IMG/VR virus record: IMGVR_UViG_3300026521_000471
Location: 58,518-122,517 of that record
Strand: one strand, 5' to 3'
Source: a virus
DNA length: 64,000 nt
This document shows, one piece after another, positions 24,546-58,288 of the stretch (positions are counted from its first letter, which is position 1; every line of letters begins with the position of its first letter). Position numbers and translations under genes: made by a program. The notes beneath the pieces are model-generated. The model did not search any database and was not told the origin of the DNA. It saw nothing but the letters and a program-made list of their open reading frames with translations.

Positions 24546-24615
24546 TTATATCAATTTATTGATGAAGCCTTAATTTAAATATTAAAGTTTCACAAATAAA
24601 TTGTTACGAGCTTTA

Positions 24616-24715
24616 GAATCGCACATAGGATACGCGGCCTATGTAGCAGAAGTACCCACTTTAAGGAGGGAGATAGATTTCAAGGGATTGAAATTGAATA
24701 TCCAGAATGCGATTC
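24616..24715 (+). ncRNA. Cloverleaf-like RNA element
   Basis: Perfect 8-bp outer stem GAATCGCA/TGCGATTC (24616-24623 with 24708-24715) encloses CATAGG/CCTATG, an ACCC/GGG hairpin with TTTAAGG in its loop, and ATTTCAA/TTGAAAT. Not a recognisable tRNA; between tRNA-Leu and tRNA-Asp. Confidence 0.45.
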
Positions 24716-24725
24716 ATTAAAAAAT

Positions 24726-24802
24726 GTCGATGTATATCAACTGGTTAGATTGCCACCCTGTCAAGGTGGAGGTTGTGGGTTCGAGTCCCATCATTGACGC
24801 CA
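24726..24802 (+). tRNA. tRNA-Asp(GTC), second copy
   Basis: Acceptor GTCGATG/CATTGAC, anticodon loop CTGTCAA, T-arm GTGGG-TTCGAGT-CCCAT, G then CCA. Confidence 0.92.
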
Positions 24803-24805
24803 AAT

Positions 24806-24880
24806 GCTTCGTTCGACTATCGGCTAGGTCATTAGGTTTTCATCCTAAAAAGAGGGGTTCGATTCCCCTACGAAGTACCA
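24806..24880 (+). tRNA. tRNA-Glu(TTC), second copy
   Basis: Acceptor GCTTCGT/ACGAAGT, anticodon arm TTAGG-TTTTCAT-CCTAA, T-arm AGGGG-TTCGATT-CCCCT, CCA encoded. Confidence 0.92.
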
Positions 24881-24893
24881 TTTTTTATTATAA

Positions 24894-24971
24894 CGGGGTG
24901 TGGGAAAGTTTGGTTAATCCGCTACTTTTGGGAAGTAGAAATCCTCAGTTCGAGTCTGAGCACCCCGACCA
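24894..24971 (+). tRNA. tRNA-Pro(TGG)
   Basis: Acceptor CGGGGTG/CACCCCG, anticodon arm CTACT-TTTGGGA-AGTAG, CCA encoded. Confidence 0.94.
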
Positions 24972-24984
24972 TTTACATATCAAT

Positions 24985-25060
24985 GCCGATTTAGCTCAGT
25001 TGGTAGAGCAACTCACTTGTAATGAGTAGGCCTGGAGTTCAAATCTTCAAATCGGCACCA
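24985..25060 (+). tRNA. tRNA-Thr(TGT)
   Basis: Acceptor GCCGATT/AATCGGC, anticodon arm ACTCA-CTTGTAA-TGAGT, CCA encoded. One T-stem mismatch. Confidence 0.93.
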
Positions 25061-25079
25061 CTTCTAATTGTTAAATATG

Positions 25080-25156
25080 GTAGTAGTAGCTCAGTTGGTT
25101 AGAGCGACGGTTTGTGGCACCGTAGGTCGTGGGTTCGAATCCCATCTATTACCCCA
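25080..25156 (+). tRNA. tRNA-His(GTG)
   Basis: Anticodon arm ACGGT-TTGTGGC-ACCGT. An extra G before position 1 faces C73, the identity feature of tRNA-His. CCA encoded. Confidence 0.93.
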
Positions 25157-25158
25157 TT

Positions 25159-25245
25159 GTCGATATGGTGAAATTGGTAAACACACTACCTTGAGGGGGT
25201 AGCGCCTATTAAGGTTTGAGAGTTCGAATCTCTCTATCGACACCA
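25159..25245 (+). tRNA. tRNA-Leu(GAG)
   Basis: Acceptor GTCGATA/TATCGAC, anticodon arm CTACC-TTGAGGG-GGTAG, type II variable arm, CCA encoded. Last tRNA of the array. Confidence 0.94.
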
Positions 25246-32238: not shown

Positions 32239-32841
32239 ATGATAATCAGAAAACTATTTAAATTTGAAGGTGCACATATTGTGAGAAATTGTTCATCAGT
32301 AAGATGTAAGAAATCAATCCACGGACACAGCTATGTTGTTGAAGTATTTTTCACAGCAAAGGGTTTTGATAATGGACAAATGTTATTAGACTTTGGTTTA
32401 ATGAAAGGAACTATCAAAGATATAGTTGATTCTTTCGACCATGCTTATTCTATGTGGAATAAAGAGAGTGATGAATTCCAAAAATTTATGATGGAAAATT
32501 CAGATAGATATATTACTATGCCAGTATCACCAAGTGCAGAAGCATACTCACTAATGTTATTATTTATTATTGATAGAATTGTTAAAGCGACTGAATTTAA
32601 TAATGGCGAACAAGGTGTGGAGGTATCAAGTGTCAGGGTTGCAGAAACTGTAACCGGTTGGGCTGAGTCTTTTAGAGATGATTTAGATTGGGTAGATTTT
32701 AAGTTAGAAGATATAGTATTTTCAGATGGAGTTAAAGCTGAATGGAATAACCCAGAAATGTATGATAAATTAATATCGTTTCATTCTGATAGTTCTTTAC
32801 CTAAACCATTTATAAACTCACCGGTAGAACAGCAGGTTTAA
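32239..32841 (+). CDS. queD: QueD-like 6-carboxytetrahydropterin synthase
   Basis: 200 residues. FEGAHIVRNCSSVRCKKSIHGHSY at the N-terminus carries the zinc His residues and catalytic Cys of QueD; L-L-D-F-G-x-M-K follows near 55; DHAY near 76; and a late V-R-V-A-E-T with the conserved Glu near 136. QueD makes 6-carboxy-tetrahydropterin, substrate for QueE, on the way to preQ0. Together with QueE and the DpdA-like genes it supports phage synthesis of a 7-deazaguanine base. No QueC or GTP cyclohydrolase gene is visible in this window. Confidence 0.9.
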   Translation: MIIRKLFKFEGAHIVRNCSSVRCKKSIHGHSYVVEVFFTAKGFDNGQMLLDFGLMKGTIKDIVDSFDHAYSMWNKESDEFQKFMMENSDRYITMPVSPSAEAYSLMLLFIIDRIVKATEFNNGEQGVEVSSVRVAETVTGWAESFRDDLDWVDFKLEDIVFSDGVKAEWNNPEMYDKLISFHSDSSLPKPFINSPVEQQV

Positions 32842-35846: not shown

Positions 35847-37697
35847 ATGAGAACAAACTATAATTTAGAAATTAGAAAAAATTATATAGATAAGGAAGTT
35901 ACGGTTTCGGGGTGGGTTAATTCAATCCGTGACCATGGTGGCGTTTACTTTATTGATTTAAGAGATACTTCCGGTATTGTACAAATTGTTGCAAATCCAA
36001 CTTCTTTAACAGAAGATGAATATGAAAAGTATCACGCTTTAAGAGATGAGTGGGTAATTGAAGTTACTGGTAAAGTTAGACTTCGTGGAGAAGGTCTTGA
36101 AAATCCAAAATTATTAACTGGTGAAATTGAAATTGTTGCAGAAGATTTAAAAATTCTAAGTAAAGCAAAAACATTACCGTTCCAACCTGGAGACGAATCT
36201 GTTAATGATGATTTAAAGCTTAAATACAGATATTTGGATATGAGAGATAACAAACTGCAGGATACTCTTACTAAAAGAAGTGATATGGCGTTTAATATCA
36301 GAGTTGCTCTGCATAACGAATTAGATTATGCGGAAATCGAAACTCCAATCTTAATGAAGTCATCTGAAGGTGGAGCAGAAGAAGTATATGCCACTTCTAA
36401 ACTATTTCCTGGAGAATTCTATTCACTGCCACAATCACCACAATTATATAAACAGTTACTTATGATTGGTGGGAGAGAAAAGTATTATTCATTTGCAAAA
36501 TGCTTTAGAGCTGAAAGTGCTCGTAAAGATAGAAACATCGAATTCACACAAATAGATATGGAACGATCTTTTTCAGATAGAAATGGTATTTTAAAAGATG
36601 TTACTAAAGTTTTAACTGCAGCTTTTGAAACAACCAATGTCGATTTTGATAAAATTAATAATGATGTTAGAGAAACAGTCCGGTGGCTTGATAGTATTAG
36701 TATTGAAGGTGAAATTGATTCTTCAGCTGATATTTTAATTCCTATGATCAAATACAATGACGCATTAAACTACTTCGGTAGTGATAAGCCGGATTTACGT
36801 TTCAAAATGTCATTGATTGAAGCTAAGAAACTTTTTATTAATACTGATTTTACGGTTTTTAAAGATATTGCTAAAAAGGATAATACAGTTGTTAAAGCTT
36901 TAGTGGCTAAAAATGCAGACTATCCAGACAAACTATCTAAAAAGAAAATTAAAGATTTAGAAAAATTTGTTAGTGAATTTGGAGCTAAAGGTTTAGCTTA
37001 TTTTCAAATGAAAGAAGAAGGCCTAAAAGGTCCTTTAACTAAATTTCTAAAACAAGTGGATTTAGATTTAATCCAAATTGAATGTGAATTAGAAGTAGGT
37101 GATATTGTTTTCTTTGGAGCAGGTGATAAAGATACCGTTTTAGATTACATGGGTCGACTAAGAATTAAAATAGCAGAAGAGTTAAATTTAATTAATGATA
37201 AATTCATACCATTATTTGTTACTGATTTTCCTATGTTTGAAAAAGGTAAAGACGGCACAATTAAAGCTATGCACCATCCATTTACAGCACCTATAATGGA
37301 ATCTTATACAAATTATTTAAATGATGAATGTGACCTTACAGAAATTCTTACTGATAGTTATGATCTTGTTTTAAATGGTGTGGAATTAGGTGGTGGTTCA
37401 GTAAGAATTTATGATGAAGAGTTACAAGAAAATATATTTAAGATTATGGGGCTTACTGATGAGGAAATAAAAGAAAAATTTGGTTTCTTTACAGAGGCTT
37501 TACAGTATGGTACTCCGCCACATTGTGGATTTGCTTTTGGTTTTGATAGATTAGTTTCACTATTATTAAAAAAAGAAACTATTAGAGAAGTAATAGCATT
37601 TCCTAAAAATCAAAGTGGTCTATGTCCTATGTCTGAATCACCAAATAAACCGGATGTTAATCAATTAAAAGAATTAGGTTTAAGAATAAAATCTTAA
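35847..37697 (+). CDS. aspS: Aspartyl-tRNA synthetase
   Basis: 616 residues, the normal length of a bacterial AspRS. The N-terminal OB fold (about 1-105) starts R-K-N-Y-I-D-K-E-V-T-V-S-G-W-V. Class II motif 2 is visible as FRAESARKDRNIEFTQIDME (about 215-234); the usual F-R-D-E-D-x-R is changed to F-R-A-E-S-A-R. SLPQSPQLYKQLLM lies before it. A bacterial GAD insertion (about 280-400) and motif 3 (FGFDRLVSLL near 565) are present. It would charge the two phage tRNA-Asp genes (24096, 24726). The gene is intact; a full synthetase is rare in phages. Confidence 0.93.
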   Translation: MRTNYNLEIRKNYIDKEVTVSGWVNSIRDHGGVYFIDLRDTSGIVQIVANPTSLTEDEYEKYHALRDEWVIEVTGKVRLRGEGLENPKLLTGEIEIVAEDLKILSKAKTLPFQPGDESVNDDLKLKYRYLDMRDNKLQDTLTKRSDMAFNIRVALHNELDYAEIETPILMKSSEGGAEEVYATSKLFPGEFYSLPQSPQLYKQLLMIGGREKYYSFAKCFRAESARKDRNIEFTQIDMERSFSDRNGILKDVTKVLTAAFETTNVDFDKINNDVRETVRWLDSISIEGEIDSSADILIPMIKYNDALNYFGSDKPDLRFKMSLIEAKKLFINTDFTVFKDIAKKDNTVVKALVAKNADYPDKLSKKKIKDLEKFVSEFGAKGLAYFQMKEEGLKGPLTKFLKQVDLDLIQIECELEVGDIVFFGAGDKDTVLDYMGRLRIKIAEELNLINDKFIPLFVTDFPMFEKGKDGTIKAMHHPFTAPIMESYTNYLNDECDLTEILTDSYDLVLNGVELGGGSVRIYDEELQENIFKIMGLTDEEIKEKFGFFTEALQYGTPPHCGFAFGFDRLVSLLLKKETIREVIAFPKNQSGLCPMSESPNKPDVNQLKELGLRIKS

Positions 37698-39350: not shown

Positions 39351-40904
39351 ATGGCTAAAACTAAATTAGTAAATGGTGTTAAACTTGATTATGTTGCCGG
39401 TTCTTTTGCCAGTTTTGCCAAAATTAATAATTCTAATAAAGAACTGAAAGAAGAAAATATTAAAGATTATATAGGACTTATGAAATTTATAGAAGGTAAG
39501 CTCAAGGGTTATATAAATGTTAGCACTTTATTTAATGCTTATCAAGAAGAAGGGGATGGTCGATCTATAAAAGAACATAATAATTTTGGTTATGATAAAG
39601 TTTATGCTGATTCTGGTGGATTACAAGTCCTTACAGCAGGTAAAACTATCAATGATGAAGTTAAAGAAAAAGTTTATACAGTCCAAGCTAAATATTCAGA
39701 CTATGCTATGACATTTGATGAAATGCCTATAATGATAGCTAAAGACTTAGGTAAAAAATCAAAAATCGGCGATTATGGACAAGTCTTTGTTGATGAGTTA
39801 GTAGAGAAAAATGCGGAATTATCTGCAATGCATATTCAAAAACAAATAGATATGTTTGAATCATTAAATACATCCACTAAAATTTTACCAATCATACATG
39901 GATATGACATTGATTCATATTTACGTTATGCTAAATCTATTTTTAATAACCTAGATCATATAGGACATCATATTCAAGGGATGTCTATTGCATCGTTAAG
40001 TGGTCATGCGGATAATAAAGTGGGGATAATGAAAGTATTTGACTTTGTGCCAAAGATATTAAATAGTGGTGAGATTAATCCTCAATATTTAGAACATATT
40101 CATTTACTAGGTGTTGCATCTTCACAAAGAATAATACCTATTATTATGATGATTAAAAAAGGATTATTACCAATTAAAACACTTTCATTTGATAGCACCG
40201 CAATAACAAAAGCATACACATTTGGTAGAGCATATCAGACCATAGAAGAATATAAAAATCCGAGGGACTTTAGTACAGAAGTAACATTAAAAAGTTATAA
40301 AAATAAAGAGTTTCCAAACATAAAACAATTATATCAGAGTATGTATGATACGTTTAAAGATTATGAAAATTTTATGTTTGATGATTGGGAAGATATAGCA
40401 AAACATTCACCAAATAATGGCGATAAACGGGCTTTAAAAGATCAATATTTGGAAGAAGGCTTAGAATATCAAAGAAAATACTTACAGCAAGTAAGGATAG
40501 CTAATCTATATCATCATTATACTTATGTTTCCATGCTAGAAGGCTATATTGACGATGAACTTAGTATAACAGAATTGTTTGGTTATAATAAAACTGTTGA
40601 AACTATGATGCAATCATTTGAGAGTGTAAACACACTTGAAGAATTATCAGAAATGTGCGAATATTTTTATAATTTTGCTAAAGTCGGTCGAACAGATTTA
40701 AGAATTAAAAAAGTAAAAACGGTTAAAGAGTTTAAAGAAAAATATGAAGAAGAAGGTATTGATGTATATGCGGAATTAGGTATCGACAAAGACGTTGAAA
40801 TCCTAAGTGAAGAATTAAAAAAACCTTGGATTAAATCTTCAATAAAAAGAGCAAAAGGGGAAGATTATCCTCATGGTGAGGAACCAACCAATGCACTTTT
40901 TTAA
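39351..40904 (+). CDS. dpdA: DpdA-like transglycosylase A
   Basis: 517 residues. YADSGGLQVLT near 84-94 is the D-S-G-G-x-Q substrate motif of the tRNA-guanine transglycosylase fold; HLLGVA near 250 and SFDST near 280, the likely nucleophile position, follow. The Cys zinc cluster of bacterial TGT is missing, as in phage DpdA enzymes that exchange guanine in DNA for a 7-deazaguanine. Closest relative in the window is copy C (43422); both begin with a matching N-terminal domain and have longer C-terminal tails than B and D. Confidence 0.85.
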   Translation: MAKTKLVNGVKLDYVAGSFASFAKINNSNKELKEENIKDYIGLMKFIEGKLKGYINVSTLFNAYQEEGDGRSIKEHNNFGYDKVYADSGGLQVLTAGKTINDEVKEKVYTVQAKYSDYAMTFDEMPIMIAKDLGKKSKIGDYGQVFVDELVEKNAELSAMHIQKQIDMFESLNTSTKILPIIHGYDIDSYLRYAKSIFNNLDHIGHHIQGMSIASLSGHADNKVGIMKVFDFVPKILNSGEINPQYLEHIHLLGVASSQRIIPIIMMIKKGLLPIKTLSFDSTAITKAYTFGRAYQTIEEYKNPRDFSTEVTLKSYKNKEFPNIKQLYQSMYDTFKDYENFMFDDWEDIAKHSPNNGDKRALKDQYLEEGLEYQRKYLQQVRIANLYHHYTYVSMLEGYIDDELSITELFGYNKTVETMMQSFESVNTLEELSEMCEYFYNFAKVGRTDLRIKKVKTVKEFKEKYEEEGIDVYAELGIDKDVEILSEELKKPWIKSSIKRAKGEDYPHGEEPTNALF

Positions 40905-41268
40905 TAAAATTAAATCATTTATAAAAGGATTAGAATTAACTAAATTCGATAAAATCTTCTTTATAGGATATATTAGTTTATGGATATATTATTTATTTAG
41001 TGGAATGAGTTATTTAACTGCTGGCGGTATATTATTAATTCTTGGAGCATGGCTAGTTTTTAAAGGTGAAATTTTTGTTGCAACTTTAAACTATGTTATA
41101 GCCGATATAATGTGGGTTTTAAATGCTATTAATATAGGTGATAATGAAGGTACTATTTTCATTATAATTGGTATGCTTTTAGGTATTGCAGCAACTTATA
41201 AAATGCAAATTGGATCTTTAGCAAAATCATTAAAAATAGAAAAAAATTGTAAAATAAAACTAAAATAA
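40891..41268 (+). CDS. Small membrane protein (125 aa)
   Basis: ATG 40891 lies inside the end of dpdA-A. Three to four hydrophobic segments with A-D-I-M-W-V-L-N-A-I-N-I-G-D in the third, recalling the small membrane protein at 38599. Basic C-terminus. Function unknown. Confidence 0.6.
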   Translation: MHFFNKIKSFIKGLELTKFDKIFFIGYISLWIYYLFSGMSYLTAGGILLILGAWLVFKGEIFVATLNYVIADIMWVLNAINIGDNEGTIFIIIGMLLGIAATYKMQIGSLAKSLKIEKNCKIKLK

Positions 41269-41280
41269 AAAAGGATTAAT

Positions 41281-42045
41281 ATGATACCTATTATGGAAAT
41301 GTTTGGCCCAACTATACAAGGTGAGGGTGCAAGAAGTGGTGTAATTTCATATTTTTTAAGAGTTGGTGGGTGTAATTTTACTTGTAAAGGTTTTGGTGTG
41401 GCATATACCGATCCTGATGGCAATGAAAAGTTTGGATGTGATAGTTATTATGCCGTTGACCAAAAATTTAAGAAGTCATGGGATTTTTTAAACTATAAAG
41501 AAATTGTTAATAAAATGAATATAATTCTGAATAAAGGGGCTCATGGTATTTTTAAACCTGATATAATTATAACCGGTGGAGAACCACTAATGTATTGGAA
41601 TAATGAAGACTTTCAAAACGTATTAATTTACTATATATCAAGAGGTTATAAAATCACGATTGAAACTAATGGTAGTATTGATATTGATTTCACAAAAGAT
41701 TATCAAAAAGAAATTATGTTTTCTATGTCGGTTAAATTAAAAAATAGTGGTGAAGCAGAACATAGAAGAATTAATATAAAAAATCTTACTAATATACTTG
41801 AAAATTCTAAATATAGTTATTTTAAATTTGTTATTGGTAATGATATGAATGATGTAGAAAAAGAAATTATAGATATTTTAGACAGCATTCCATATTATAC
41901 TGATGTTTTTGTAATGCCTATGGGAGAAACTACCGATGGGATTGAAAAACACGCTTTAAAAACTGCTGAATTAGCTATTAAAAATAATTGGAAATATAGC
42001 GATAGATTACATATTAGATTATGGAATGATAAACCGGGTGTTTAG
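41281..42045 (+). CDS. queE: QueE-like 7-carboxy-7-deazaguanine synthase
   Basis: 254 residues. MEMFGPTIQGEG near the start and G-G-C-N-F-T-C are typical of QueE, a radical SAM enzyme. The third cluster Cys comes 17 residues later (GCDS) rather than two, giving C-x3-C-x17-C, a known type of insertion in some phage and bacterial QueE proteins. ITGGEPL near 98 and an E-T-N-G near 123 match the family. It would convert 6-carboxy-tetrahydropterin to CDG, feeding the DpdA enzymes on either side. Confidence 0.9.
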   Translation: MIPIMEMFGPTIQGEGARSGVISYFLRVGGCNFTCKGFGVAYTDPDGNEKFGCDSYYAVDQKFKKSWDFLNYKEIVNKMNIILNKGAHGIFKPDIIITGGEPLMYWNNEDFQNVLIYYISRGYKITIETNGSIDIDFTKDYQKEIMFSMSVKLKNSGEAEHRRINIKNLTNILENSKYSYFKFVIGNDMNDVEKEIIDILDSIPYYTDVFVMPMGETTDGIEKHALKTAELAIKNNWKYSDRLHIRLWNDKPGV

Positions 42046-42062
42046 ATTTAAGAGGAAAATAT

Positions 42063-43412
42063 ATGAGTAAATTTAAAAATACAGAACTAATTGTCGATTA
42101 TGTTCTTTCAGGATTCGGAGCTTCATTTCGATTAGGCTCACCAAATGAAGCTTACGCTAGAGGTGTTGCAGAAGAATTATTTAGTTCTACTAAATTTTTA
42201 GAATCAGAAACTAGAGGCGATAATATTGAAATGAGTGCATTGTTTAATGCATATACAGAAGATAGAATGGCGGAACAGTTAAATGGGTTTAATCTTAATT
42301 TAAGAGATCTATATACTGGGGGTATGTATGTTGATTCTGGAGGATTACAGGTTTTAACACAAGGCAAAACTATCGATGAAGAAATGAGAAAAAAAATATA
42401 TAAAACTCAGGCTTCATATGGTGATTTTGCTATGAGTTTTGATGTTATTCCTTCTGAATTTGTAAATGGCGAAAAAATATATTTTCCGGAGCGAGTAGCT
42501 GATGCGGGAACACAAGCTGGAAAAAATTTAATTGAACAAATTAAAGCATTTAAAGAATACAATACCTCTTGTAAAATCATGCCAATCATTCAAGGATTAG
42601 GTGAAAGTGACATGGATTTATATGCTAATAATATGTTTAGCCAACTATCTAAAGATGAATTGGATTATATCACAAGTGTCGCTTTTGGTGGTGGTACAAG
42701 TGGTTTTGAATTTTTAAATAGAATGATGAATGCTCATCATTCAAAAATTTTATCACAAAAAATGAATCATGTGCATTTACTAGGGATTACAGGCTTTTCT
42801 AGACTATTACCGCCTATTATTGCAGCAATGAATGGAATTCTTCCAGATGTTAATAGAATTTCTTTTGATAGTACAACAATATCAAAGACTTATGTATTAG
42901 GGATGGTATGGCCAGAAGTTGAGGATGTTATTTCTGGTAATGTTAAAGCTGGTGCAAGTACATCGTTAGGCAAAGTAAGAAATAAAACTGTTGAAGCTCA
43001 TTATGAAAAAATGTGGAATTGGTGGAAAAAAAATCCTAATAATATTTTTGATGGTGTTGAAGATCTTTTAGAACATTCCGTATATAACTCTAAAGGTTTT
43101 ACAACTGGATACCAACAAACAGAAAATTTATCATTAGAAGATGGAATCAAAACAATTACCCAAAAGCATGTTTTTGTATATTATAACACATATAATTTTA
43201 TCAATATTTTAAAAGGATATATAAAAGGCGAGGTACCATTATCCAACTTGTTAGGTAAGAATCAAAAAGGTATTTTCTTATTTGAACAATTAGAGAGTAT
43301 TACTGATGTAAACGATTATAATGAGTGGTTTATAGATGTTAAAAAACATATAAAGATTGATGTTCCATCTGTTGGTTCAGATAAAGGACAATCAACAAAT
43401 ATTTTATTTTAG
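42063..43412 (+). CDS. dpdA: DpdA-like transglycosylase B
   Basis: 449 residues. YVDSGGLQVLT near 88-98, HLLGITG near 240 and SFDST near 270. Shorter than A and C and most like D (53287), sharing the N-terminal S-x-F-N-A-Y-T-E-D/E segment and the HLLGVTGF-type motif. Ends in N-I-L-F; A, C and D also end with a small residue or Leu, Leu/Ala and Phe. Confidence 0.85.
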   Translation: MSKFKNTELIVDYVLSGFGASFRLGSPNEAYARGVAEELFSSTKFLESETRGDNIEMSALFNAYTEDRMAEQLNGFNLNLRDLYTGGMYVDSGGLQVLTQGKTIDEEMRKKIYKTQASYGDFAMSFDVIPSEFVNGEKIYFPERVADAGTQAGKNLIEQIKAFKEYNTSCKIMPIIQGLGESDMDLYANNMFSQLSKDELDYITSVAFGGGTSGFEFLNRMMNAHHSKILSQKMNHVHLLGITGFSRLLPPIIAAMNGILPDVNRISFDSTTISKTYVLGMVWPEVEDVISGNVKAGASTSLGKVRNKTVEAHYEKMWNWWKKNPNNIFDGVEDLLEHSVYNSKGFTTGYQQTENLSLEDGIKTITQKHVFVYYNTYNFINILKGYIKGEVPLSNLLGKNQKGIFLFEQLESITDVNDYNEWFIDVKKHIKIDVPSVGSDKGQSTNILF

Positions 43413-43421
43413 GTGATATTG

Positions 43422-45002
43422 ATGGCTACAAGTAAAAAACAAATAAATGGTATTACTTTAGATTATGTTTCTGGTTCATTACGACCTTTCTTAAAAATAG
43501 GTTCTGGTAGTACAGATGCTATAAAGCATGAGGGAGTTGAAGATTTTAAGAAACTACTAGATTGGTCTCAAACACATTTAAAAGGTTACTTTGTACTATC
43601 AACACTTTTTAATGCGTTTCAAGAAGAAAAAGATGGTAAAGTATTAAAAGAAGAAAACAAACTTAATCATGACGCAATTTATGCCGATTCTGGTGGATTA
43701 CAAGTCCTCACTAGAGGATTAGAAATTACAGATGATATTAAATTGAAAGTATATGATACTCAAGCTAAATATTGTGATTTTGCCATGACATTCGATGAAA
43801 TGCCTTTAAAAGTTATAGAAAATCAAGATCAATTTGGTAAATCAATTATTGATAATAACAGGGTTGTTCATATCAAAGAAATGGTAGGTATATCTGCAAA
43901 AAATTCAGCAGCACATATTCAACAGCAAATTGATGTATTTGAAAAACTTAAGACGAATACAAAAATATTACCTATTGTACATGGTTTTAGTGAAGAAACA
44001 TATATCGAATACGCCGAAACAATTATGAAAAACTTACATAATATTAAGGAACATATCCAAGGTATGGCTATTGCTTCATTATCAGCATCAGCGGATAATA
44101 AGGTAGGTATAATGAAAGTTTTTGATTATGTACCAACTCTTATGAATGCTAAAGAGATAAAAGAAGAGTATAGACAACATGTCCACTTACTAGGAGTAGC
44201 TTCATATCAAAGAATAATTCCAGTTATGATGATGGCTAAAAAGGGTATTTTTGATACCGTTAAAAGAATTTCATTTGATAGTACTGCACTTACAAAATCA
44301 TATACATTTGGGCGTGTATATGCTAGTGTTGAAGAAATGAAAAATCCTAAAGATTATGAACCTCTTTTATCATTAAATCATTGGAAAGATCCTCATTCAA
44401 AAAATATTAGACAATTTTATAATAACGTACACAATTTACTCAAAGACTACCCCGATTATATTTTTGAAGATGTTGAAGATTTGATGAACCATTCACAAAA
44501 TAATGGTGAGAAATTAAAAGTTAGTGAACAATTTAAAAAATATGGAACTGAATATGAAAGAAAATATCTGGCTCAAGTGAGATATAATAGCATTTATAAT
44601 ATGATTCAGTATTTAAGTGTTATTGAAGCTTATTTAGAAGATGAACTGGCTGTAGCTGATATATTCTCATATAATGGGACAGTAAGATTTATGTTTGAAA
44701 CCTTTGAGCATAATGCACATACAAAAGAAGATTTTAAAGAGATGTGTAACTATTTTTATACAACGGCTACAACAGGAAGAACGAACCTCAATTATATAAT
44801 AATGGACACTTTAGAAGAATTTGAAAAAAGTGAATATGGAAATAATCCCGATGTAAAATCGGACCCATTAGCCGAATTAGGAGTAGGGGAAGTACCAAAA
44901 CATGAAAAAGGGTATGTTCGACCAGATCTTTTAGCTCGACGAGCTAAAAGAGCACCTAGAGATTTTAAAGAAGATGGAAATCCATCAGATTCTCTTTTTT
45001 AA
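43422..45002 (+). CDS. dpdA: DpdA-like transglycosylase C
   Basis: 526 residues from ATG 43422 (ATG 43413 is also possible). YADSGGLQVLT near 82-92, AMTFDEMP shared with A, HLLGVASYQR near 258 and SFDSTALTKSYTFGR near 284. Clearly a paralog of A. Ends D-S-L-F. Directly downstream of copy B, so the two are co-transcribed. Confidence 0.85.
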   Translation: MATSKKQINGITLDYVSGSLRPFLKIGSGSTDAIKHEGVEDFKKLLDWSQTHLKGYFVLSTLFNAFQEEKDGKVLKEENKLNHDAIYADSGGLQVLTRGLEITDDIKLKVYDTQAKYCDFAMTFDEMPLKVIENQDQFGKSIIDNNRVVHIKEMVGISAKNSAAHIQQQIDVFEKLKTNTKILPIVHGFSEETYIEYAETIMKNLHNIKEHIQGMAIASLSASADNKVGIMKVFDYVPTLMNAKEIKEEYRQHVHLLGVASYQRIIPVMMMAKKGIFDTVKRISFDSTALTKSYTFGRVYASVEEMKNPKDYEPLLSLNHWKDPHSKNIRQFYNNVHNLLKDYPDYIFEDVEDLMNHSQNNGEKLKVSEQFKKYGTEYERKYLAQVRYNSIYNMIQYLSVIEAYLEDELAVADIFSYNGTVRFMFETFEHNAHTKEDFKEMCNYFYTTATTGRTNLNYIIMDTLEEFEKSEYGNNPDVKSDPLAELGVGEVPKHEKGYVRPDLLARRAKRAPRDFKEDGNPSDSLF

Positions 45003-45042: not shown

Positions 45043-46077
45043 ATGAAAATAGCTATTATTGGTGCTGGATGGTATGGATGTCATATAGCTTCAATTTTAA
45101 AATCGTACGCTGTTGATATAACTATTTTTGAACAAGAAGATGATATTTTTAAACATGCATCATCAAAAAATCAAAATAGACTTCATTTGGGTTTTCATTA
45201 TCCTAGATCTTCAATAACACGACTGCAGTCAAAACAGGGTTTTAAAAATTTTAAAAAAGAGTATGATTTTTGTTGTAGTCCTATAAGTAAAAATTTCTAT
45301 GCAGTAGATAATCAACGATCTTTAATAGACTTTGAAACATTTAAAATTATTATGGAACACGATCTGGATTTTAAAATAAAAGATAATACGGACAGACTAC
45401 AAAACTTATCTGGATTAATTAATACTAAGGAAGAAGTTATTAATTTTGATATTGCCATAGAACACTTTAAAGAATTATTGTCAGGCGATTTAAGATTAAA
45501 CTGTAAAATTGAAAATGCAGATATTCAAAATTGTGATGATTATGTCCAAATTAAAGATGAAAATTTTGATTATTTAATCAACTGTACTTGGGCTACTTTT
45601 AGAAATAATTTCAATATTGACGCTTTTTATGAATCATGTATTGTTTTACTTTATAAAACATCACATCACGAAAATGATTTCGCTATAACTATTATGGATG
45701 GTGAATTTGTATCTCTATTTCCATATACTGAAAACGGGGTGTACACACTCACATCTGTAAAAAATACAGTTCTAAAAAGAGATAAAAGTTATAAAAAAAT
45801 TATAGATTTTCAAAATAATTTATCGGATGATTTTATACAAGAAATTATTAAAAAAATGGAAGCTGAAATGATATATTATTATCCAGATTTTTTAATAGAT
45901 TTTGAATTTAAAGACTATTTTCTTACAACAAAAAGTAAACTTAATGTACAAACTGATTCTCGTGAAGTGGTAGTAAAACATAATAATCGAGAGATTTTTG
46001 TATTTTCTGGAAAAATAGATACTATCTTTGAAGCTGAAAAAGAAATTTTAAAAATACTAGGATTAAAAAATGAATAA
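45043..46077 (+). CDS. FAD-dependent oxidoreductase (DAO-like)
   Basis: 344 residues. IIGAGWYGCHIA at residues 4-15 is an FAD/NAD-binding Rossmann loop; NQNRLHLGFHYPRS near 44 is typical of a DAO-type family found in surface-polysaccharide and modification clusters. Overlaps the next SDR gene by 8 bases. A role in modifying a sugar or base is inferred from context. Confidence 0.75.
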   Translation: MKIAIIGAGWYGCHIASILKSYAVDITIFEQEDDIFKHASSKNQNRLHLGFHYPRSSITRLQSKQGFKNFKKEYDFCCSPISKNFYAVDNQRSLIDFETFKIIMEHDLDFKIKDNTDRLQNLSGLINTKEEVINFDIAIEHFKELLSGDLRLNCKIENADIQNCDDYVQIKDENFDYLINCTWATFRNNFNIDAFYESCIVLLYKTSHHENDFAITIMDGEFVSLFPYTENGVYTLTSVKNTVLKRDKSYKKIIDFQNNLSDDFIQEIIKKMEAEMIYYYPDFLIDFEFKDYFLTTKSKLNVQTDSREVVVKHNNREIFVFSGKIDTIFEAEKEILKILGLKNE

Positions 46078-46738
46078 TAAAATATGTATCATTGGCGGTA
46101 CCTCCAATATTTCAAAATCATTTATAAAAATGGTTGAAAATAATTTTGATATTATAACGGTTGGTAAAAGCTCTAATAATGATATTGAATTTGATATTAA
46201 TAATGGAAATTTTAATAATATTAATAAAATACCTTTAAATTGTTCGTATTATTTAATTGCTGCAGGCATATTATACCCAAAAAAGATTATCGAACAAACA
46301 AATAATGAGATTTTAAATAGTATATCTTTAAATCTTTTATTTCCGACTTATTTAATTGAACAGATATTAGATATTAATGAAGATGTAAGAATTGTAGTGG
46401 TTGGTTCTGAATCGGGTAAAAAAGGTTCATATGACACAACTTACTTTTTAAGTAAAGCAGCTTTAAAATCTTATATACAAGAAAAACATATTAAATCTAA
46501 AAACCAATCACTAAATATGATTGCTCCATCGGTTATACTGGATACAAAAATGACACAAGATCGGGACGATTTAGAAGAAGTATTAGAAAGAGCAAAAGAT
46601 TTACCAAAAGAAAGATATTTAATGAGTGAAGAAGTCGCTAAACTTATTTATTATTTATTTTTTGAGGATTCAGGGTATATTAATAACGAAGTTATTAATA
46701 TGAATGGTGGTAAATTTGCAAGAATGAATTACAGATAA
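46070..46738 (+). CDS. Short-chain dehydrogenase/reductase
   Basis: 222 residues. I-I-G-G-T-S-N-I near the start (nucleotide loop), VVVGSESG near 107 and YFLSK near 124 (Y-x3-K catalytic pair). Coupled to the FAD oxidoreductase and followed by a glycosyltransferase, suggesting a shared sugar or base pathway. Confidence 0.78.
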   Translation: MNNKICIIGGTSNISKSFIKMVENNFDIITVGKSSNNDIEFDINNGNFNNINKIPLNCSYYLIAAGILYPKKIIEQTNNEILNSISLNLLFPTYLIEQILDINEDVRIVVVGSESGKKGSYDTTYFLSKAALKSYIQEKHIKSKNQSLNMIAPSVILDTKMTQDRDDLEEVLERAKDLPKERYLMSEEVAKLIYYLFFEDSGYINNEVINMNGGKFARMNYR

Positions 46739-46748
46739 GGAAAGGGAT

Positions 46749-48188
46749 ATGAAACAATATAAAAAACGAATAGCATTTATTATATCATCACAACATTTTA
46801 TAATACATGGTGGTATAGGAACATTTGCACGAGCTTTCGTAGATATGTGCAATGATTTAGATTATAAAGTCGACTATATAATGGATAAAGCTCCGGCTAA
46901 TAAAGATTTAGAAGAATACATACTTAAAAATAATGGAAATATTTTATACCCTCACAAAGACTTGTCTTATAAAGGTCATAATGCAAGGTTTGTTTTCTCA
47001 GATAGTATGAATTTAGAAAAAACTATAAACTTTAGGGATTCGTTTTTACAATCATTTAAGAATGCAATTTATGATGTTATCATCATAAATTCTAATGATG
47101 CTATATTACCAATATTAATAACCGGGATTCAGAGTATTGCACCGACAATAGTATATTCTCATAGTGGTGAACTAGTTTTTGTAAATGAAAAACATGATCC
47201 AGTCTTTAAAAAGTCTGTAGTCGAAATTTATAAACAATTAATGTGTTTGGATGATATTATAATCGGAACTCATAGTGACCATAATAAAGCTATCATAGAA
47301 AATAACTTTCCAGATATAAATGTCAAAACATTACCTTTAAGGATAGCTGATAAGGGGTTATTAGACTCCATAGATCCGAATATTGAAAAAAATGGCGTGT
47401 TATTTGTAGGTCGTTATGAACCAAGAAAAAATCCCGACACATTTTTAAAAGGTGTTTCTGAAGCAGGACTAAAAATCTTAATAATGACAAATGATAACGG
47501 GGCTAAAAAATTTGAAGCTAAACTTTTAGCTTTAGGTTATGAAAAATTTAATGAAAGAAAAAATGATCCACTGCAAAATGATGGAAAAGTATATGAAATA
47601 AAATTTGGTATATTTGGAAAAGAAAAAGAAGCTTTCATGAATAAAGCTAGGCTTTCTTTCCAACCTGCTATTTTAGAATCATATGCATATAGTACAGTTG
47701 AAGCATTACATTGTTGTAGAACCGTAGTACTTGATGAATATTCGTGGGGTAAAAATTTCAAAGGGTTAGCATATTTTACAAATAAAAAGACAATGAGTGA
47801 AGATTTAAAACGTTGGCATGATGAAGATTATGATATGGAACAGCAATTAGAAAAAATGCGAAAAATTTATAATGATGGTGCGCAGTATTGGACAGATATA
47901 TTTGAAGAATATTCCGCTTTAAATTTAAACCCTAAAAAAGTAACAAAAACTAAGTTATACAAATTATTGGATGAACAGAAGGATTTTGTATCCATTTCAT
48001 ATATACTTGAAACGCTACTAAATAGAGATTTAAATTGGATAGCTATTGATGATGCTGAAATTTTTTATAAAATTATTAATGAATTGGATATTGTTCATAC
48101 TGATAAAGAAACTTTTATAGCATTAAAAAATAAAAAATTCAAATTTAATATATCGGACGAAGTTGATGGTTCCGAATTATTATTTTAA
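46749..48188 (+). CDS. Glycosyltransferase (GT4-like)
   Basis: 479 residues. G-G-I-G-T-F-A-R-A near 22 (GT-B N-domain), LFVGRYEPRKNPDTF near 218 (start of C-domain) and Y-S-T-V-E-A-L near 316 with the usual acidic sugar-nucleotide residue. Last 90 residues are an extra helical domain. Could glycosylate DNA bases, surface or protein. Confidence 0.82.
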   Translation: MKQYKKRIAFIISSQHFIIHGGIGTFARAFVDMCNDLDYKVDYIMDKAPANKDLEEYILKNNGNILYPHKDLSYKGHNARFVFSDSMNLEKTINFRDSFLQSFKNAIYDVIIINSNDAILPILITGIQSIAPTIVYSHSGELVFVNEKHDPVFKKSVVEIYKQLMCLDDIIIGTHSDHNKAIIENNFPDINVKTLPLRIADKGLLDSIDPNIEKNGVLFVGRYEPRKNPDTFLKGVSEAGLKILIMTNDNGAKKFEAKLLALGYEKFNERKNDPLQNDGKVYEIKFGIFGKEKEAFMNKARLSFQPAILESYAYSTVEALHCCRTVVLDEYSWGKNFKGLAYFTNKKTMSEDLKRWHDEDYDMEQQLEKMRKIYNDGAQYWTDIFEEYSALNLNPKKVTKTKLYKLLDEQKDFVSISYILETLLNRDLNWIAIDDAEIFYKIINELDIVHTDKETFIALKNKKFKFNISDEVDGSELLF

Positions 48189-48226
48189 AATGATATTTGT
48201 ATAATACATATAAAAAGGTTAAAAAA

Positions 48227-48976
48227 ATGAAAATATACCAAATCGAAATAACAAATGCATGTCAATTTAGATGTGATTACTGCCCTAGAACAACAGCTAT
48301 GACTAGAAAAGTAGGCTCTATGTCTAATGAAACGATTAACAGAATAGCTGATGTACTAACTAGTGATTCAATTCGACTTCACCACTATGGCGAAAGTTTA
48401 ATTGAGTTGGATAAAACTCTTTATGCGATTAAAGCATTAAAAAATAAAAACCCAGAATTGGTTATAGAATTAAATACAAATGGTGAGTACTTAACCCCAG
48501 AAACGACAGATAAACTATTTGAGGCCGGCCTTTCAAAAGTTAATTTATCATATCATTTCCCACCAAGTATTAAACACTTAAAAAATATTGATCCAAAATA
48601 TAGAGAACGAATTGAAGTTATGAAAATAGCCCACTTATCTGAAATTGAAAAGTATAAAAATGAGTTAAAAGAAGTAAAAGAAATAGGATACAAAGTAATC
48701 TTAAAACAATTAAGAGACTTAGGTCAAGTTAATGCAGATAGTGCAGGAAAAGGTAATGCATGGAAAGAATGTTCTTTTATAAAAAATAATGAATTCGTAG
48801 TATTATGGGATGGACGTATTGTCACTTGTTGCGAAGTATTTGATGGTGAACCAGAAGAAATACTAGGATCAATTTTTGATGACTCTTTACCAGAAAAAAA
48901 TAAATATATTTCTAAATGTGCTACTTGTATGGGTTATGGAAATGGCGATATTGAAACTGAAAAAATAAATATTTAA
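48227..48976 (+). CDS. Radical SAM protein with SPASM-like C-terminus
   Basis: 249 residues from ATG 48227. NACQFRCDYCPR gives the C-x3-C-x2-C cluster motif. The C-terminus has T-C-C-E and K-C-A-T-C-M clusters like a SPASM auxiliary domain. Its place among glycosyltransferase and DpdA genes suggests maturation of a modified base or small peptide; substrate unknown. Confidence 0.82.
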   Translation: MKIYQIEITNACQFRCDYCPRTTAMTRKVGSMSNETINRIADVLTSDSIRLHHYGESLIELDKTLYAIKALKNKNPELVIELNTNGEYLTPETTDKLFEAGLSKVNLSYHFPPSIKHLKNIDPKYRERIEVMKIAHLSEIEKYKNELKEVKEIGYKVILKQLRDLGQVNADSAGKGNAWKECSFIKNNEFVVLWDGRIVTCCEVFDGEPEEILGSIFDDSLPEKNKYISKCATCMGYGNGDIETEKINI

Positions 48977-51542: not shown

Positions 51543-51896
51543 ATGGCTGTTAAGCAATTAAATAATTTTGTATGGATTACAACGAGTTTTGAGGGGTTTC
51601 ATAAATACCCCGATGCTCCTGAAGAGGTTTCATTTTTAAAAGAAAGACACAGACATATATTCAAACTTAAAATTTGGATTGAAGTATTTCATAATGATAG
51701 AGACATTGAATTTATTCTTTTTAAAAGATTTATTGATTCATTAATAGTTGAAAATGAAATGGATTATAAATCATGTGAAATGATTTCTGATGATCTCGCA
51801 AATTGGATTAATGAAAAATTTCCAAAGCGGACTATAAAAATTGAAGTTTCTGAAGATGGAGAAAATGGCTCTTATAAAGAATATGAAGCTATATAG
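51543..51896 (+). CDS. QueD-like T-fold protein
   Basis: 117 residues. H-R-H-I-F-K-L near 37, D-R-D-I-E-F near 55 and a late I-E-V-S-E-D with Glu line up with the H-G-H-x-Y-V, D-F and A-E-T landmarks of QueD, but the catalytic Cys and several zinc residues are absent. Similar short proteins (F-H-x-Y-P-D-A-P-E-E) are common in phages with no proven role. Confidence 0.6.
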   Translation: MAVKQLNNFVWITTSFEGFHKYPDAPEEVSFLKERHRHIFKLKIWIEVFHNDRDIEFILFKRFIDSLIVENEMDYKSCEMISDDLANWINEKFPKRTIKIEVSEDGENGSYKEYEAI

Positions 51897-51904: not shown

Positions 51905-52993
51905 ATGAAAAATATTTTTTTAGTTGATATTGAATATATACCAACCCGTTATTCTTCACAATGGAAAGAATGGATTCCAGAAGAAATTAATAAATCCGAG
52001 TTATTAAATTGTGTTGTAATAGATGGTCCGGATAACAAAGATTATGAAACAACCCCTGGTGGGTTTTTCAATTTCTTTGAAACTAATTTATATAAAATGG
52101 TGCAAGGGCAAAAAATAGCAAAACTCTTTATGGAAGATAAAGTCAATGATGGTGATATATTCTTATTTACTGATGGTTGGCATCCTGCAGTAATATCTTT
52201 AAGACAAATGATAAATCTCTCTAAGAAAAAAATTAAAATGATGGGTATGTTTCATGCTGGGGCTTATGACCCAGCAGATATATTGGGACAAACTTGCAGA
52301 GATAATTTTTTAAATATTGAATTAGGTTACTTAGATTGCTTAGATACGGCTATATTTGCTACTAAATTTAGTAAACAACTTATGCTTGACAATCTTATTA
52401 TTGATGATGTGAAAAAAAATGAATTAGATAAAAAAATGGTAGTGACAGGTTTCCCATATAATTTTGATCATTTATATCAAAGTAAAAATAAATCTAACAA
52501 TATTTTATTTCCTCACAGAATAAGTCCAGAAAAACATATTGAACTTTTTAGAAAAAAAGATAAAATATCAGAACAATACAACACTATTGAGGAATTACTT
52601 CCCAATTTTGAAGCAATTGTTACTTTAGAAATAACAAAAAATAAAGATGAGTTTCATGAATTATTAGCTAACTCAAAATATAGTGTTAGTTTCGCAGATC
52701 AAGAAACTTGGGGCATTTCAGTATTTGAATCATTAATGAGTGGATGCTTGCCAATTATACCAAATAAATTAAGTTATAATGAAATGTATTCAGATGAACT
52801 TAAATATGATCCATATGATGAAAATGGTAATGAAGATATATATAACTGGCCTATAAAAGTTAAAAAAGTTATTGACCGTTTAGAACAATTAACACTAGAA
52901 GATAAACAAAAAATAATAGATAAAAATATAAAATATTTAAAAGAATATTATTGTACTTTTGAGTATATTTTAGATTTACTAATTATAGGATAG
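51905..52993 (+). CDS. Glycosyltransferase-like protein
   Basis: 362 residues with GT-B layout: ILFPHRISPEKHIELF near 198 and E-T-W-G-I-S-V-F-E-S-L-M-S-G-C-L-P-I-I-P (about 275). The F-P-H-R...P-E-K-H motif is reminiscent of GTDC1/QTMAN-type enzymes that mannosylate tRNA queuosine, an attractive link to 7-deazaguanine chemistry, but the match is short. Confidence 0.72.
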   Translation: MKNIFLVDIEYIPTRYSSQWKEWIPEEINKSELLNCVVIDGPDNKDYETTPGGFFNFFETNLYKMVQGQKIAKLFMEDKVNDGDIFLFTDGWHPAVISLRQMINLSKKKIKMMGMFHAGAYDPADILGQTCRDNFLNIELGYLDCLDTAIFATKFSKQLMLDNLIIDDVKKNELDKKMVVTGFPYNFDHLYQSKNKSNNILFPHRISPEKHIELFRKKDKISEQYNTIEELLPNFEAIVTLEITKNKDEFHELLANSKYSVSFADQETWGISVFESLMSGCLPIIPNKLSYNEMYSDELKYDPYDENGNEDIYNWPIKVKKVIDRLEQLTLEDKQKIIDKNIKYLKEYYCTFEYILDLLIIG

Positions 52994-53286: not shown

Positions 53287-54833
53287 ATGACACAAAATAA
53301 TATTTCAAATATTAAATCTACTATCGAGAATGATCCAAAAGGATTGAAATTAGAGCTTGTAATTTCGGGCATACCTTAGGCTACTTTAAATTAAGAAGTC
53401 AGCACGATGATTTATTTAGAATTACAGCATTATCTTTACGAAAATGCCTAGACTATATTGAAGAAAAATTACCAGGCAATGTTTTATTACAGGGTCTATT
53501 CAATGCATACACAGAGGAAGTCATGGCTCGTAGAGCAAGTGAAGAATCAATTAATGTACCGTTCAAATCTATCTTCCCACATGGATTGCATGCTGATTCA
53601 GGTGGTTTACAAATGGTTACTTTAGGTAAGGGTACTGTTGAAAAAGAAGATAGACTTAAAATCTATGAAACACAAAGTAAGTATGCTGATTATGCTATGA
53701 GCTTTGATGAAATTCCTGCAGTATTTATTGATGATGTTAAATACTATATGCAAAGTCTAATTGAAGAAAAAGGTATTGAGTCAGGTAATAATCTCAGGGA
53801 ACAATTTGATTATTTTGCTACAACCGATTCAACTTGTAGAATTGTACCCATCGTACAAGGTTGGGGGATAAAAGACACAAATACATTCGCTAAAGGATTA
53901 TTTGCACAATTTACTGATGAAGAAAAAAGCAAAATGGATATTTTTGCTTCGGGTTTCCAAAGTACATCTGTTTATGCATCGGCGAAAAGGGCATTCGACT
54001 TATACAGAGTTGAGTCAATACCTGAAAATGCTAAACAACATCTGCACCTTTTAGGGGTAACAGGTTTTAAAAGGTTAATACCTATTTTGATACTAATCAA
54101 AAATAATATGACTGAGGGTTTAAAATCTCTATCATTTGATTCGGTTACACTTTCTATGAGTTATGTTATGGGTGGCACTGTTCCTTCTGTTGATGATTTT
54201 AAAAATGGTAAGGGCAAAATAAAATTAGGTAAAAAACGTAATAAAGATGTGGATGCTTATTGGCAAGAAATTTTTGATTTTTGGAAAGACGATCCAGAAT
54301 TCCCTTTTGATGATTTAAATGATATGATGGAACATAGCTATTATAATTCAAATGGATTAACTAGTGGTTACCAACAATATGAGCATTTTTTACAAGCTGA
54401 TGAAGATGGCAATTTTACTAAAAAAAATAAAAAAATAGCTGATTTTCATTTTGCTAAAGTATTGAAGCAAGAGCAGTATTATATTTTATATCAAGTTCAT
54501 AATTATGTACAAATATTAGAATCCTTTTTAGAAGATGATATTAAACTTGAGCATATTTTTAAAGGTAAAGATCTAGTATTATTCCAAGCTTTAGAAAAAG
54601 TTACAACTGATGATGATTTTAATGATTGGTATGAATACCTTAAAAAATCTACAGGTTTTTCAATTTTAACTATGAATTCTGAAGCAAAATCATCAGAGGA
54701 AACAACTAATTTATTATTTGATGACTCAAATAACGAACCTATAAAAGAAAGAAAAAAACAACCATCTAGAGTAGCTAAAAAACCGACTAAAGTAGAAGAA
54801 GATAATATTGATGCTATGAATGATTTATTTTAA
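53287..54833 (+). CDS. dpdA: DpdA-like transglycosylase D (frameshifted N-terminus)
   Basis: The ATG at 53287 begins a matching N-terminus, but that frame stops at 53379. The homologous sequence resumes one frame back at FGHTLGYFKLRS and runs to 54833 with HADSGGLQMVT, HLLGVTGFKR and SFDSV. One base appears missing near GGG at 53368-53370, or the ribosome shifts -1 there. From the internal ATG 53523 only a truncated protein results. Otherwise full length and most like copy B. The last 50 residues are Lys-rich. Confidence 0.8.
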
Positions 54834-56123: not shown

Positions 56124-57488
56124 ATGATTAATTTTAAAACACTTCAAACTGATTTCTATCAGATTTCAATGGCTTTCGCTTATGTACTTTCAAATAAAGC
56201 AAATGTAACAACTGGTTTTGAGGGCTTTGTAAGAAATGTAAAAGCGGCTGTAAACCCAAACAGAGATTTTTATATCTTTAGTGGAGAGCAGGAAGTAAAA
56301 GACTACATCGAAACTGTAAAAAAAGAAATCAGAGACCCACAATTCATAGAAACTTTTATTGAGCTTATAGAACCTAAAATAACTGCTAAGAATAAAGAGG
56401 ATCTTATTCAAGAATTTAGAGAAAAATGGAAAACTCTTGATTTTGATTTTGAGTATAACGTAGTTGCAGAAGGCTCTATTGTATTTCCTTTTGTACCTGT
56501 TTTTCAATATAAAGGACCTAAAATTTGGGGGCAACTTATTGAAACTTATGTTACAAATATTTACAACGGTAAAACAGCATTTGCTACTCTTAAAAAACTT
56601 AAAGAAGAAGATAAAGCATTTGTAACAGATAGTGAATTTATTTTCATTAAAGGTATTATGGAAAATAATCCTTTTGCTATAAATGAATACACTAAAAATC
56701 TTGAGAGAACTGCTGAGGAATTTAGAAAGTCAACAGATAAAATCCTTCTTGAAGCAGCATTTAGAAGAGCACCAACAAAAATTATAGCAGATGTAGCATC
56801 TAATGTAGCTATTAGTAAAGGTTGGGATGGTACTTCAAATGTTTCAAATGTTCTTAATGGTATGATTACAGCTGATAAAGTTGGTGGTACAATGGCTCAT
56901 GCTTTTGTAATGAGTTTTGAAAATGAAAGAGATGCCTTTAAAGCATGGGATAGAATCTTTCCTGGAACAACAATGCTTATCGATACTTATGACGTTGAAA
57001 ATGCAGCAAAAATGATTAAAGAGATGGTTGATAACGGTGAGATAACTAAACCGAACGATCTTAGAATTGATAGTGACCCTATTGATGATTACTGTAAACT
57101 CGTTTACGATATTTTTGATAATGCTATTGGTATCTTTGTAAGTGGCGATATGGACACAGAAAAATTTGAAATCCTAGATGGACAAAATATTCCATATAGT
57201 AAAGCTATGGCTGGAACAAAATATGTTTATGAAAACTATATCGCATCAAAACTTAATAGTGGTTTTGTTTACAAAATCGTAGAGTACATTAATGAGGATG
57301 GGAAAACTATTAGACCTGAGAAAAAAGCAAATGGGAAATCAAATTACCCTGGACTTAAAATGGTAAGTTATGATGAGTTTAGAAATATTCTTACTATTTG
57401 GAATAATACAGATAAAGGACAGTTTGGGTTTTCAGGAATGAGTAAAATCAAACCAGATTCAAAAGTTGAATTCAAAACTTCTTCATAA
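56124..57488 (+). CDS. pncB: Nicotinate phosphoribosyltransferase
   Basis: 454 residues. TDFYQISM near 10, EGFVRN near 33, GTMAHAFVMSFENERDAF (about 256-273) with the conserved His, a MLIDTYD segment near 286 and L-R-I-D-S-D near 315 match the nicotinate phosphoribosyltransferase family rather than NAMPT. It makes nicotinate mononucleotide in NAD+ salvage. Strong ribosome site (AAAGGAG) and codon choice richer in CTT/GGT than its neighbours suggest recent host origin. Pairs functionally with the NMNAT-like domain at 26467. Confidence 0.87.
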   Translation: MINFKTLQTDFYQISMAFAYVLSNKANVTTGFEGFVRNVKAAVNPNRDFYIFSGEQEVKDYIETVKKEIRDPQFIETFIELIEPKITAKNKEDLIQEFREKWKTLDFDFEYNVVAEGSIVFPFVPVFQYKGPKIWGQLIETYVTNIYNGKTAFATLKKLKEEDKAFVTDSEFIFIKGIMENNPFAINEYTKNLERTAEEFRKSTDKILLEAAFRRAPTKIIADVASNVAISKGWDGTSNVSNVLNGMITADKVGGTMAHAFVMSFENERDAFKAWDRIFPGTTMLIDTYDVENAAKMIKEMVDNGEITKPNDLRIDSDPIDDYCKLVYDIFDNAIGIFVSGDMDTEKFEILDGQNIPYSKAMAGTKYVYENYIASKLNSGFVYKIVEYINEDGKTIRPEKKANGKSNYPGLKMVSYDEFRNILTIWNNTDKGQFGFSGMSKIKPDSKVEFKTSS

Positions 57489-57538: not shown

Positions 57539-58288
57539 ATGTTAGCAAAAGTTACAAAAAAAGTAAAAAATTTCATTCAAAATCTAGAAGTTGTTTCTCC
57601 TAAAGACTACAACAAATACTTTAATGACATTGCATTTGATATGGGTATAGAAACAAGCGAATTTGATTGTGATATGTCTAATGCTATTGATAAACATCGT
57701 GACACTTTAGAAGAAAATACATCTCTTGCTATAAATGCTATTAATACTCGTGATGTAAAAGCTCTAGAACTTGTAAACGATAATATGAGTAAATTAAAAA
57801 AAGAAATTATAGAACTTAAAGAATTAGTATATAAAGACGAATTAACTCAAGTATATAATAGAAAATATATTACTGATAATATATTATCTGGAGATTATTT
57901 TAAAATTAATGGTCTTATGGTTATTCTTGACATGAATAATCTTAAAAAAATCAATGATACCATTGGACATGTAGCTGGAGATAAGGCTATAATCTATCTT
58001 TCTAAAGAACTAAAGAATTTAACAGAAAATACTATTAGATTTGGAGGAGATGAATTTCTATTATTTTTTGATGACATTGATTTAGAAGATTGCTTCTTAA
58101 AACTACATAAATTACGTGAAAAAATAAGTACCAAAATATTTCGCTTTAAAGGTGTTGAATTTAATATTAGTTTTGCTTTCGCTGCTATAGCTATCGACCC
58201 ATCAAAAAAATTCAAAGAAACTCTTGAAATTGTAGATAATGAAATGTATAAAGATAAAGAAAGAGTTAAAAATATGTTAAACAAATAA
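57539..58288 (+). CDS. Diguanylate cyclase (GGDEF)
   Basis: 249 residues. N-terminal 95 residues are helical and could form a sensory coiled coil. Residues about 98-248 are a GGDEF domain: DELTQVYNRKY near 100, then R-F-G-G-D-E-F near 161, the intact active-site signature for making cyclic di-GMP from two GTP. No EAL domain. No membrane segment, so cytoplasmic. Phage-driven cyclic di-GMP would lower motility and favour attachment. Confidence 0.92.
   Translation: MLAKVTKKVKNFIQNLEVVSPKDYNKYFNDIAFDMGIETSEFDCDMSNAIDKHRDTLEENTSLAINAINTRDVKALELVNDNMSKLKKEIIELKELVYKDELTQVYNRKYITDNILSGDYFKINGLMVILDMNNLKKINDTIGHVAGDKAIIYLSKELKNLTENTIRFGGDEFLLFFDDIDLEDCFLKLHKLREKISTKIFRFKGVEFNISFAFAAIAIDPSKKFKETLEIVDNEMYKDKERVKNMLNK

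Follow-up and report, generated by a model that had tools for sequence, protein, structure and literature searches.

The stretch of DNA analysed here (64,000 nucleotides, referred to as the window) covers positions 58518-122517 of a virus record of 224,467 bases (G000). As described in the original prediction, three DpdA paralogs (A, B and C) flank a QueE gene at 41281-42045, and the fourth one, D, is located at 53.3-54.8 kb. The count of four had to be raised, as a search of the whole record revealed six such genes. The two additional copies, E and F, are adjacent to each other (record positions 126668-127999 and 128012-129322) and start about 4 kb beyond the 3' end of the window; B and C are likewise direct neighbours. 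The genes of the window that are relevant to this analysis are as follows.

32239-32841, plus strand: QueD (6-carboxy-tetrahydropterin synthase) homolog, 200 aa (PF01242, 3.9e-19)
39351-40904, plus strand: DpdA2 paralog A, 517 aa, member of the A/C subfamily with His where TGT has Q203 (phrog_10773, 1.2e-51; TGT fold, Z 17.7; catalytic motifs)
40873-41268, plus strand: predicted membrane protein, 131 aa, conserved next to QueE in G001, a related phage
41281-42045, plus strand: QueE (7-carboxy-7-deazaguanine synthase), 254 aa (phrog_2076, 5.1e-56; TIGR03365, 3.9e-20, below the cut-off of that model; Radical_SAM)
42063-43412, plus strand: DpdA2 paralog B, 449 aa, member of the B subfamily with Gln where TGT has Q203 (phrog_10773, 6.8e-51; AF2 pLDDT 90.7; TGT fold, Z 19.4)
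43422-45002, plus strand: DpdA2 paralog C, 526 aa from the ATG at 43422, A/C subfamily (phrog_10773, 4.4e-61; 47% identical to A)
46749-48188, plus strand: GT1, glycosyltransferase (group 1), with tail SELLF at 48171-48185 (PF00534, 2.5e-6)
51543-51896, plus strand: conserved 117-aa protein with an H..HRH motif (phrog_17812, 8.2e-27)
51905-52993, plus strand: GT2, second glycosyltransferase, without a tail
53287-54833, plus strand: DpdA2 paralog D, with an ATG-initiated ORF at 53523-54833 (436 aa; 63% identity with its intact ortholog in G001)

Between the A-B-C cluster and D, a row of genes at 45043-48976 encodes an FAD oxidoreductase, a short-chain dehydrogenase, GT1 and a radical SAM/SPASM protein, and among these only GT1 had homologs in other DpdA2 loci. 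Elsewhere in the window, 22 tRNA genes were predicted and an aspartyl-tRNA synthetase-like gene was noted (9262-25245 and 35847-37697), and a NAMPT-like gene (56124-57488) precedes a GGDEF-type diguanylate cyclase-like gene (57539-58288), with the last three assignments made by eye. Also by eye, an EF-Tu-like ORF without its N-terminus was seen at record positions 42531-43682, and no matching segment was present in any frame just upstream.

In a profile search, A to D matched phrog_10773 (2.5e-39 to 4.4e-61), and in the genome search this match extended over most of the protein in all six copies (9.7e-38 to 4.9e-63). This family is listed as having unknown function. The protein on which DpdA2 was founded, that of Vibrio phage nt-1 (YP_008125322; Hutinet et al. 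2019, PMC6884629), matches it at 9.1e-213, however, so that the family name DpdA2 is secure. DpdA2 itself is already known from phage nt-1; new are its ancient six-fold expansion and a disordered C-terminal tail of the "SLExLF" type.

The relation to TGT enzymes was visible only by fold comparison, as a PDB profile search returned no TGT relative by sequence. The AlphaFold model of B (pTM 0.90) matched Z. mobilis TGT with a Z of 19.4 and an rmsd of 4.2 over 308 residues, and its Foldseek matches included the DNA preQ0 insertase DpdA (7ui4), Cap10 and 7owz, while the best viral structural match was the nt-1 DpdA2 (TM 0.76). The model of A (pLDDT 80) matched TGT as well (see above). Both catalytic Asp residues (in DSGG and FDS) were invariant in all 56 aligned sequences, and the motifs DSGGLQ and S-F-D-S, which include the D-S-G-G and F-D-S that had been proposed to be intact, were invariant in all copies. 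Family and fold support the earlier identification of these proteins as DNA base-exchange (DpdA-type) enzymes, and the six genes belong to the DpdA2 branch of the TGT-fold enzymes. We consider it very probable that they exchange bases in DNA.

Since the fold is that of tRNA TGT and the window holds 22 predicted tRNAs, the substrate might instead be tRNA or another nucleic acid, but this appears highly improbable. None of A to D matched the Pfam and NCBIfam TGT models at E 0.1, and the ten G000 and G001 copies have no conserved Cys, which leaves no equivalent of the zinc site (CxCxxC...H). In addition, the single-copy family members that have been tested sit in phages with modified DNA: nt-1 DNA contains dPreQ0, dADG and dG+ at no more than approximately 0.1% of G (PMC6884629), and in DNA of Schizotequatrovirus 6E351A dPreQ1 amounts to 15% of G (PMC12028318). 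The tail described below, which is shared with replication enzymes, also speaks against a tRNA substrate.

The six copies are not all in the same state. D had been regarded as simply intact, but a frame change disrupts its 5' end: translation from the ATG at 53287 would reach a stop codon (53377-53379), while the conserved sequence goes on in a different frame that is open from 53334. The ORF that starts with the ATG at 53523 lacks approximately 75 N-terminal residues, whereas the D ortholog in G001 is uninterrupted (503 aa, 63% identical). A programmed frameshift was considered and set aside, as no standard slippery heptamer was seen there and the gene is unbroken in G001. A mutation, an internal start and an assembly error cannot be distinguished here; we prefer a mutation or an assembly error over a programmed frameshift, and D may be damaged.

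With respect to the supply of the base, no FolE and no QueC were found in the record. One ORF was considered as a QueC candidate and rejected, since its match covered 29 positions, remained below the cut-off, and the ORF reads like NAD synthase. Loci of DpdA2 relatives contain FolE, QueC and QueE genes, and G001 carries two ArcS-core proteins, QueC and an amidotransferase with a weak match. The missing steps may be provided by the host, or their genes may be absent because the record is incomplete. The 117-aa protein has homologs in 37 of 84 DpdA2 loci and is possibly QueD-like.

We then considered how unusual six copies are. The statement that phages usually have one DpdA held for the DpdA2 family: tblastn with B and tblastn with A each returned 70 places in 70 phage records. 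Among approximately 100 other phage records examined, the sole exception was G001, a related phage of 306 kb with four copies. Each of the remaining records that were searched whole (in a list that counts phage pf16 twice) has one copy, and the viral scans that found relatives likewise gave more than one locus from G001 only. An open frame of 1087 aa in G001 that looked like a double-DpdA2 fusion was dismissed, as its individual ORFs resolve into two genes, one of 551 aa and one of 503 aa. No relative was found in the bacterial and archaeal genomes scanned with the A/C alignment.

In a maximum-likelihood tree, the ten G000 and G001 copies formed one clade (98/88) comprising the subfamilies A/C, B, D/F and E, and both phages have orthologs of B and of D. 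The proposed pairing of A with C agrees with this tree and with their sequence identity, whereas the proposed pairing of B with D does not: D is closest to F (43%), and B is sister to D plus F. Because subfamilies are common to both phages, the duplications predate the split of the two, whose shared proteins are roughly 30-80% identical. Within one genome, the identity between most subfamilies is only ~27-34%, while G000/G001 orthologs are 48-63% identical.

These values bear on the question of whether the copies are merely redundant, with every active copy catalysing one reaction at one set of sites and the surplus copies only raising dosage or drifting. Jumbo phages tolerate redundancy, the catalytic residues are the same in all copies, and the 5' end of D is interrupted, all of which would fit such an amplification. 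However, recent dosage copies would be near-identical, and old duplications with retained subfamilies argue against a recent amplification, although a functional difference is not thereby shown; moreover, both the catalytic residues and the tails were kept in all ten copies. We therefore regard redundancy as unlikely. Still less likely, in our view, is that the paralogs form mixed dimers like QTRT1/QTRT2 of the eukaryotic TGT, in which some copies would mainly serve as DNA readers. TGT enzymes are dimeric, the eukaryotic one is a heterodimer (7owz, among the structural matches), and B adjoins C just as E adjoins F, but both catalytic Asp residues are present in every copy, whereas a subunit that only reads DNA should have lost one of them.

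The subfamilies have stayed distinct over a long divergence, as would be expected if their jobs differ. One difference was seen at the position of TGT Q203, where all four A/C members have His but B, D, E, F and the B and D orthologs have Gln. We presume this correspondence to Z. mobilis TGT numbering from the motif and from general knowledge of TGT enzymes rather than from a solved complex. The Gln/His difference is consistent with differing substrates. In our judgement, specialisation of the copies is about as likely as not. Of note, the DpdA of phage CAjan, which belongs to another branch, is described in work cited in PMC8306585 as serving two DNA motifs with a single enzyme, so that several enzymes need not mean several motifs.

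A second feature of the copies is their C-terminal end, which in the window takes the following forms.

40887-40901, plus strand: tail of A, TNALF, on a linker predicted to be disordered (residues 471-517)
43395-43409, plus strand: tail of B, TNILF, predicted to be disordered (residues 439-449, pLDDT <50)
44985-44999, plus strand: tail of C, SDSLF
54816-54830, plus strand: tail of D, MNDLF

The final residues of A and B were predicted to be disordered by AlphaFold. Only 9 of the 244 record ORFs of at least 100 aa end in LF, namely the six DpdA2 copies, GT1 and two others. The chance of all six copies ending this way is 3e-10 if common descent is ignored, and common descent does account for part of the sharing among the six. 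In the G000/G001 lineage the tail takes the form [ST][ND]xLF and not SLExLF, while single-copy relatives usually end in SLE[DEG][LF]F. Across 82 loci, the tail was present in 46 of 62 DpdA2 ORFs versus 22 of 1,312 neighbouring ORFs (Fisher 4e-55, ignoring relatedness); the strict form was missing from the other 16 DpdA2 proteins, that of nt-1 included.

The 22 tailed ORFs that are not DpdA2 were chiefly DNA polymerases, GT1 homologs and the ArcS-core protein of nt-1, with a small number of other or unknown products. In these T4-like DpdA2 phages, the DNA polymerases end in STLDDFFS, TLESFFG, SLEDLFGW, SLEDFFS and SLESLFA. In the complete phage Moby, which also has an annotated gp45, the tail occurs on 3 of 229 ORFs, which are the polymerase, a T4 baseplate-family protein and DpdA2, the latter with the ending SLDDLFG. 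RNase HII (TTDILF) and one of the two ArcS-core proteins (PSNSLF) of G001 likewise end in LF. Separately, many G001 ORFs at record positions 135714-141591 and 188164-194593 share a different repeated ending that resembles 'LPEK[IVL]xxLxF'.

An extreme C-terminal hydrophobic and acidic peptide on a flexible linker is also what characterizes the T4-type clamp-binding motif. The T4 polymerase gp43, gp55 and gp33 bind the sliding clamp via such interchangeable C-termini (PMC2988020), and T4 alpha-glucosyltransferase binds gp45, although this binding is not the main determinant of its share of modification (PMC13216743). Given these precedents and the presence of the tail on polymerases, clamp binding is the best reading of the tail that we can infer, and by this analogy DpdA2 is probably tethered to the clamp. 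Alternatively, the tail might dock to a different hub or be a functionless relic of common descent, for which we see a minor chance. A clamp (PF09116) was not found in either G000 or G001, the two multi-copy phages, and the ending of the T4 baseplate-family protein is similar. On the other hand, the proteins that share the tail are non-homologous and nearly all act on DNA (DNA polymerases, GT1, the DUF5591/ArcS core and the RNase HII of G001), and the GT2 homologs, present in 27 DpdA2 loci, carry it in none.

The search for a complete DNA polymerase, with the models of family B polymerase (PF00136) and Pol III alpha (PF07733), was likewise negative in G000 and G001, where nothing beyond a short polymerase-like ORF and weak, incomplete matches turned up. 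With neither a clamp nor a complete polymerase at hand, the tail cannot be matched to a partner in that lineage. An ORF of 283-300 aa, present at 6056-6907 of the window and at L021:3265-4167, resembles the palm of DNA polymerase B (PF00136, 3.5e-8) and is conserved in G001.

GT1 homologs were present in nine other DpdA2 phage loci, and all nine carry a related tail, which suggests that GT1 may act on DNA.

We next compared this system with those already described. The DpdA2 proteins of nt-1 and 6E351A have in common with the present ones phrog_10773, the fold, the catalytic motifs and a QueE/QueC/QueD/FolE-type context. They differ in occurring as one copy per genome instead of six, and in that no FolE or QueC was found here; the nt-1 DpdA2 furthermore lacks the strict tail, though the nt-1 ArcS-core protein has it. 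The CAjan DpdA and the bacterial Dpd systems (7ui4) share the TGT-like preQ0 exchange on DNA, which is putative here, but constitute a separate, highly diverged single-copy branch. Z. mobilis TGT has the same fold (Z 17.7-19.4) and the same paired catalytic Asp positions, and the DpdA2 copies differ from it in the lack of a TGT model match and of a conserved zinc Cys cluster, in their presumed DNA substrate and in the disordered tail. With the C-termini of T4 gp43, gp55 and gp33 they share a short hydrophobic and acidic peptide at the very end of a variable linker, and with T4 alpha-glucosyltransferase, if clamp binding applies, the attachment of a DNA-modifying enzyme to the clamp. Unlike in T4, the peptide is here found on 7-deazaguanine base-exchange enzymes and, in this lineage, as [ST][ND]xLF. 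In a limited search of the literature we found no description of clamp-tethered 7-deazaguanine enzymes or of glycosylated 7-deazaguanine in DNA.

Taken together, these observations can be joined in the following model. Guanine would be removed from phage DNA by double displacement via the two invariant Asp residues, and a 7-deazaguanine precursor would be inserted, made by the phage QueD and QueE together with FolE and QueC that are either undetected or of host origin. The disordered tail with its short hydrophobic peptide would most likely dock on the sliding clamp and so direct the exchange to freshly replicated DNA. A single ancestral DpdA2 gene would have been duplicated before the split of the two sampled jumbo phages, and the A/C, B, D/F and E subfamilies would have been kept, most likely for different sequence contexts or different bases. 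Finally, the tail-bearing GT1 may decorate the inserted base on the DNA. We lean towards this explanation as a whole, that is, clamp-tethered base-exchange enzymes, specialised by subfamily, that feed a glycosyltransferase. Its most far-reaching version is more doubtful: a set of clamp-riding DpdA2 enzymes, each with its own contexts and with at least two base pockets among them, followed by a clamp-tethered glycosyltransferase, would place more than one guanine modification in a single phage genome, including a glycosylated 7-deazaguanine.

The model suggests that the phage re-writes its DNA while copying it. If true, it would answer the open question of how base-exchange enzymes get to the phage DNA before restriction does. 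A simple sequence rule would also follow from the tail, as enzymes that would act on DNA (DpdA2, the ArcS core and GT1) carry it and those that act on free precursors (QueE and QueC) do not, where checked, and this rule would offer a way to find unknown modification enzymes. Altogether, the six paralogs would form a natural set for studying the DNA sequence and base specificity of TGT-fold enzymes, and could serve for site-selective DNA labelling.
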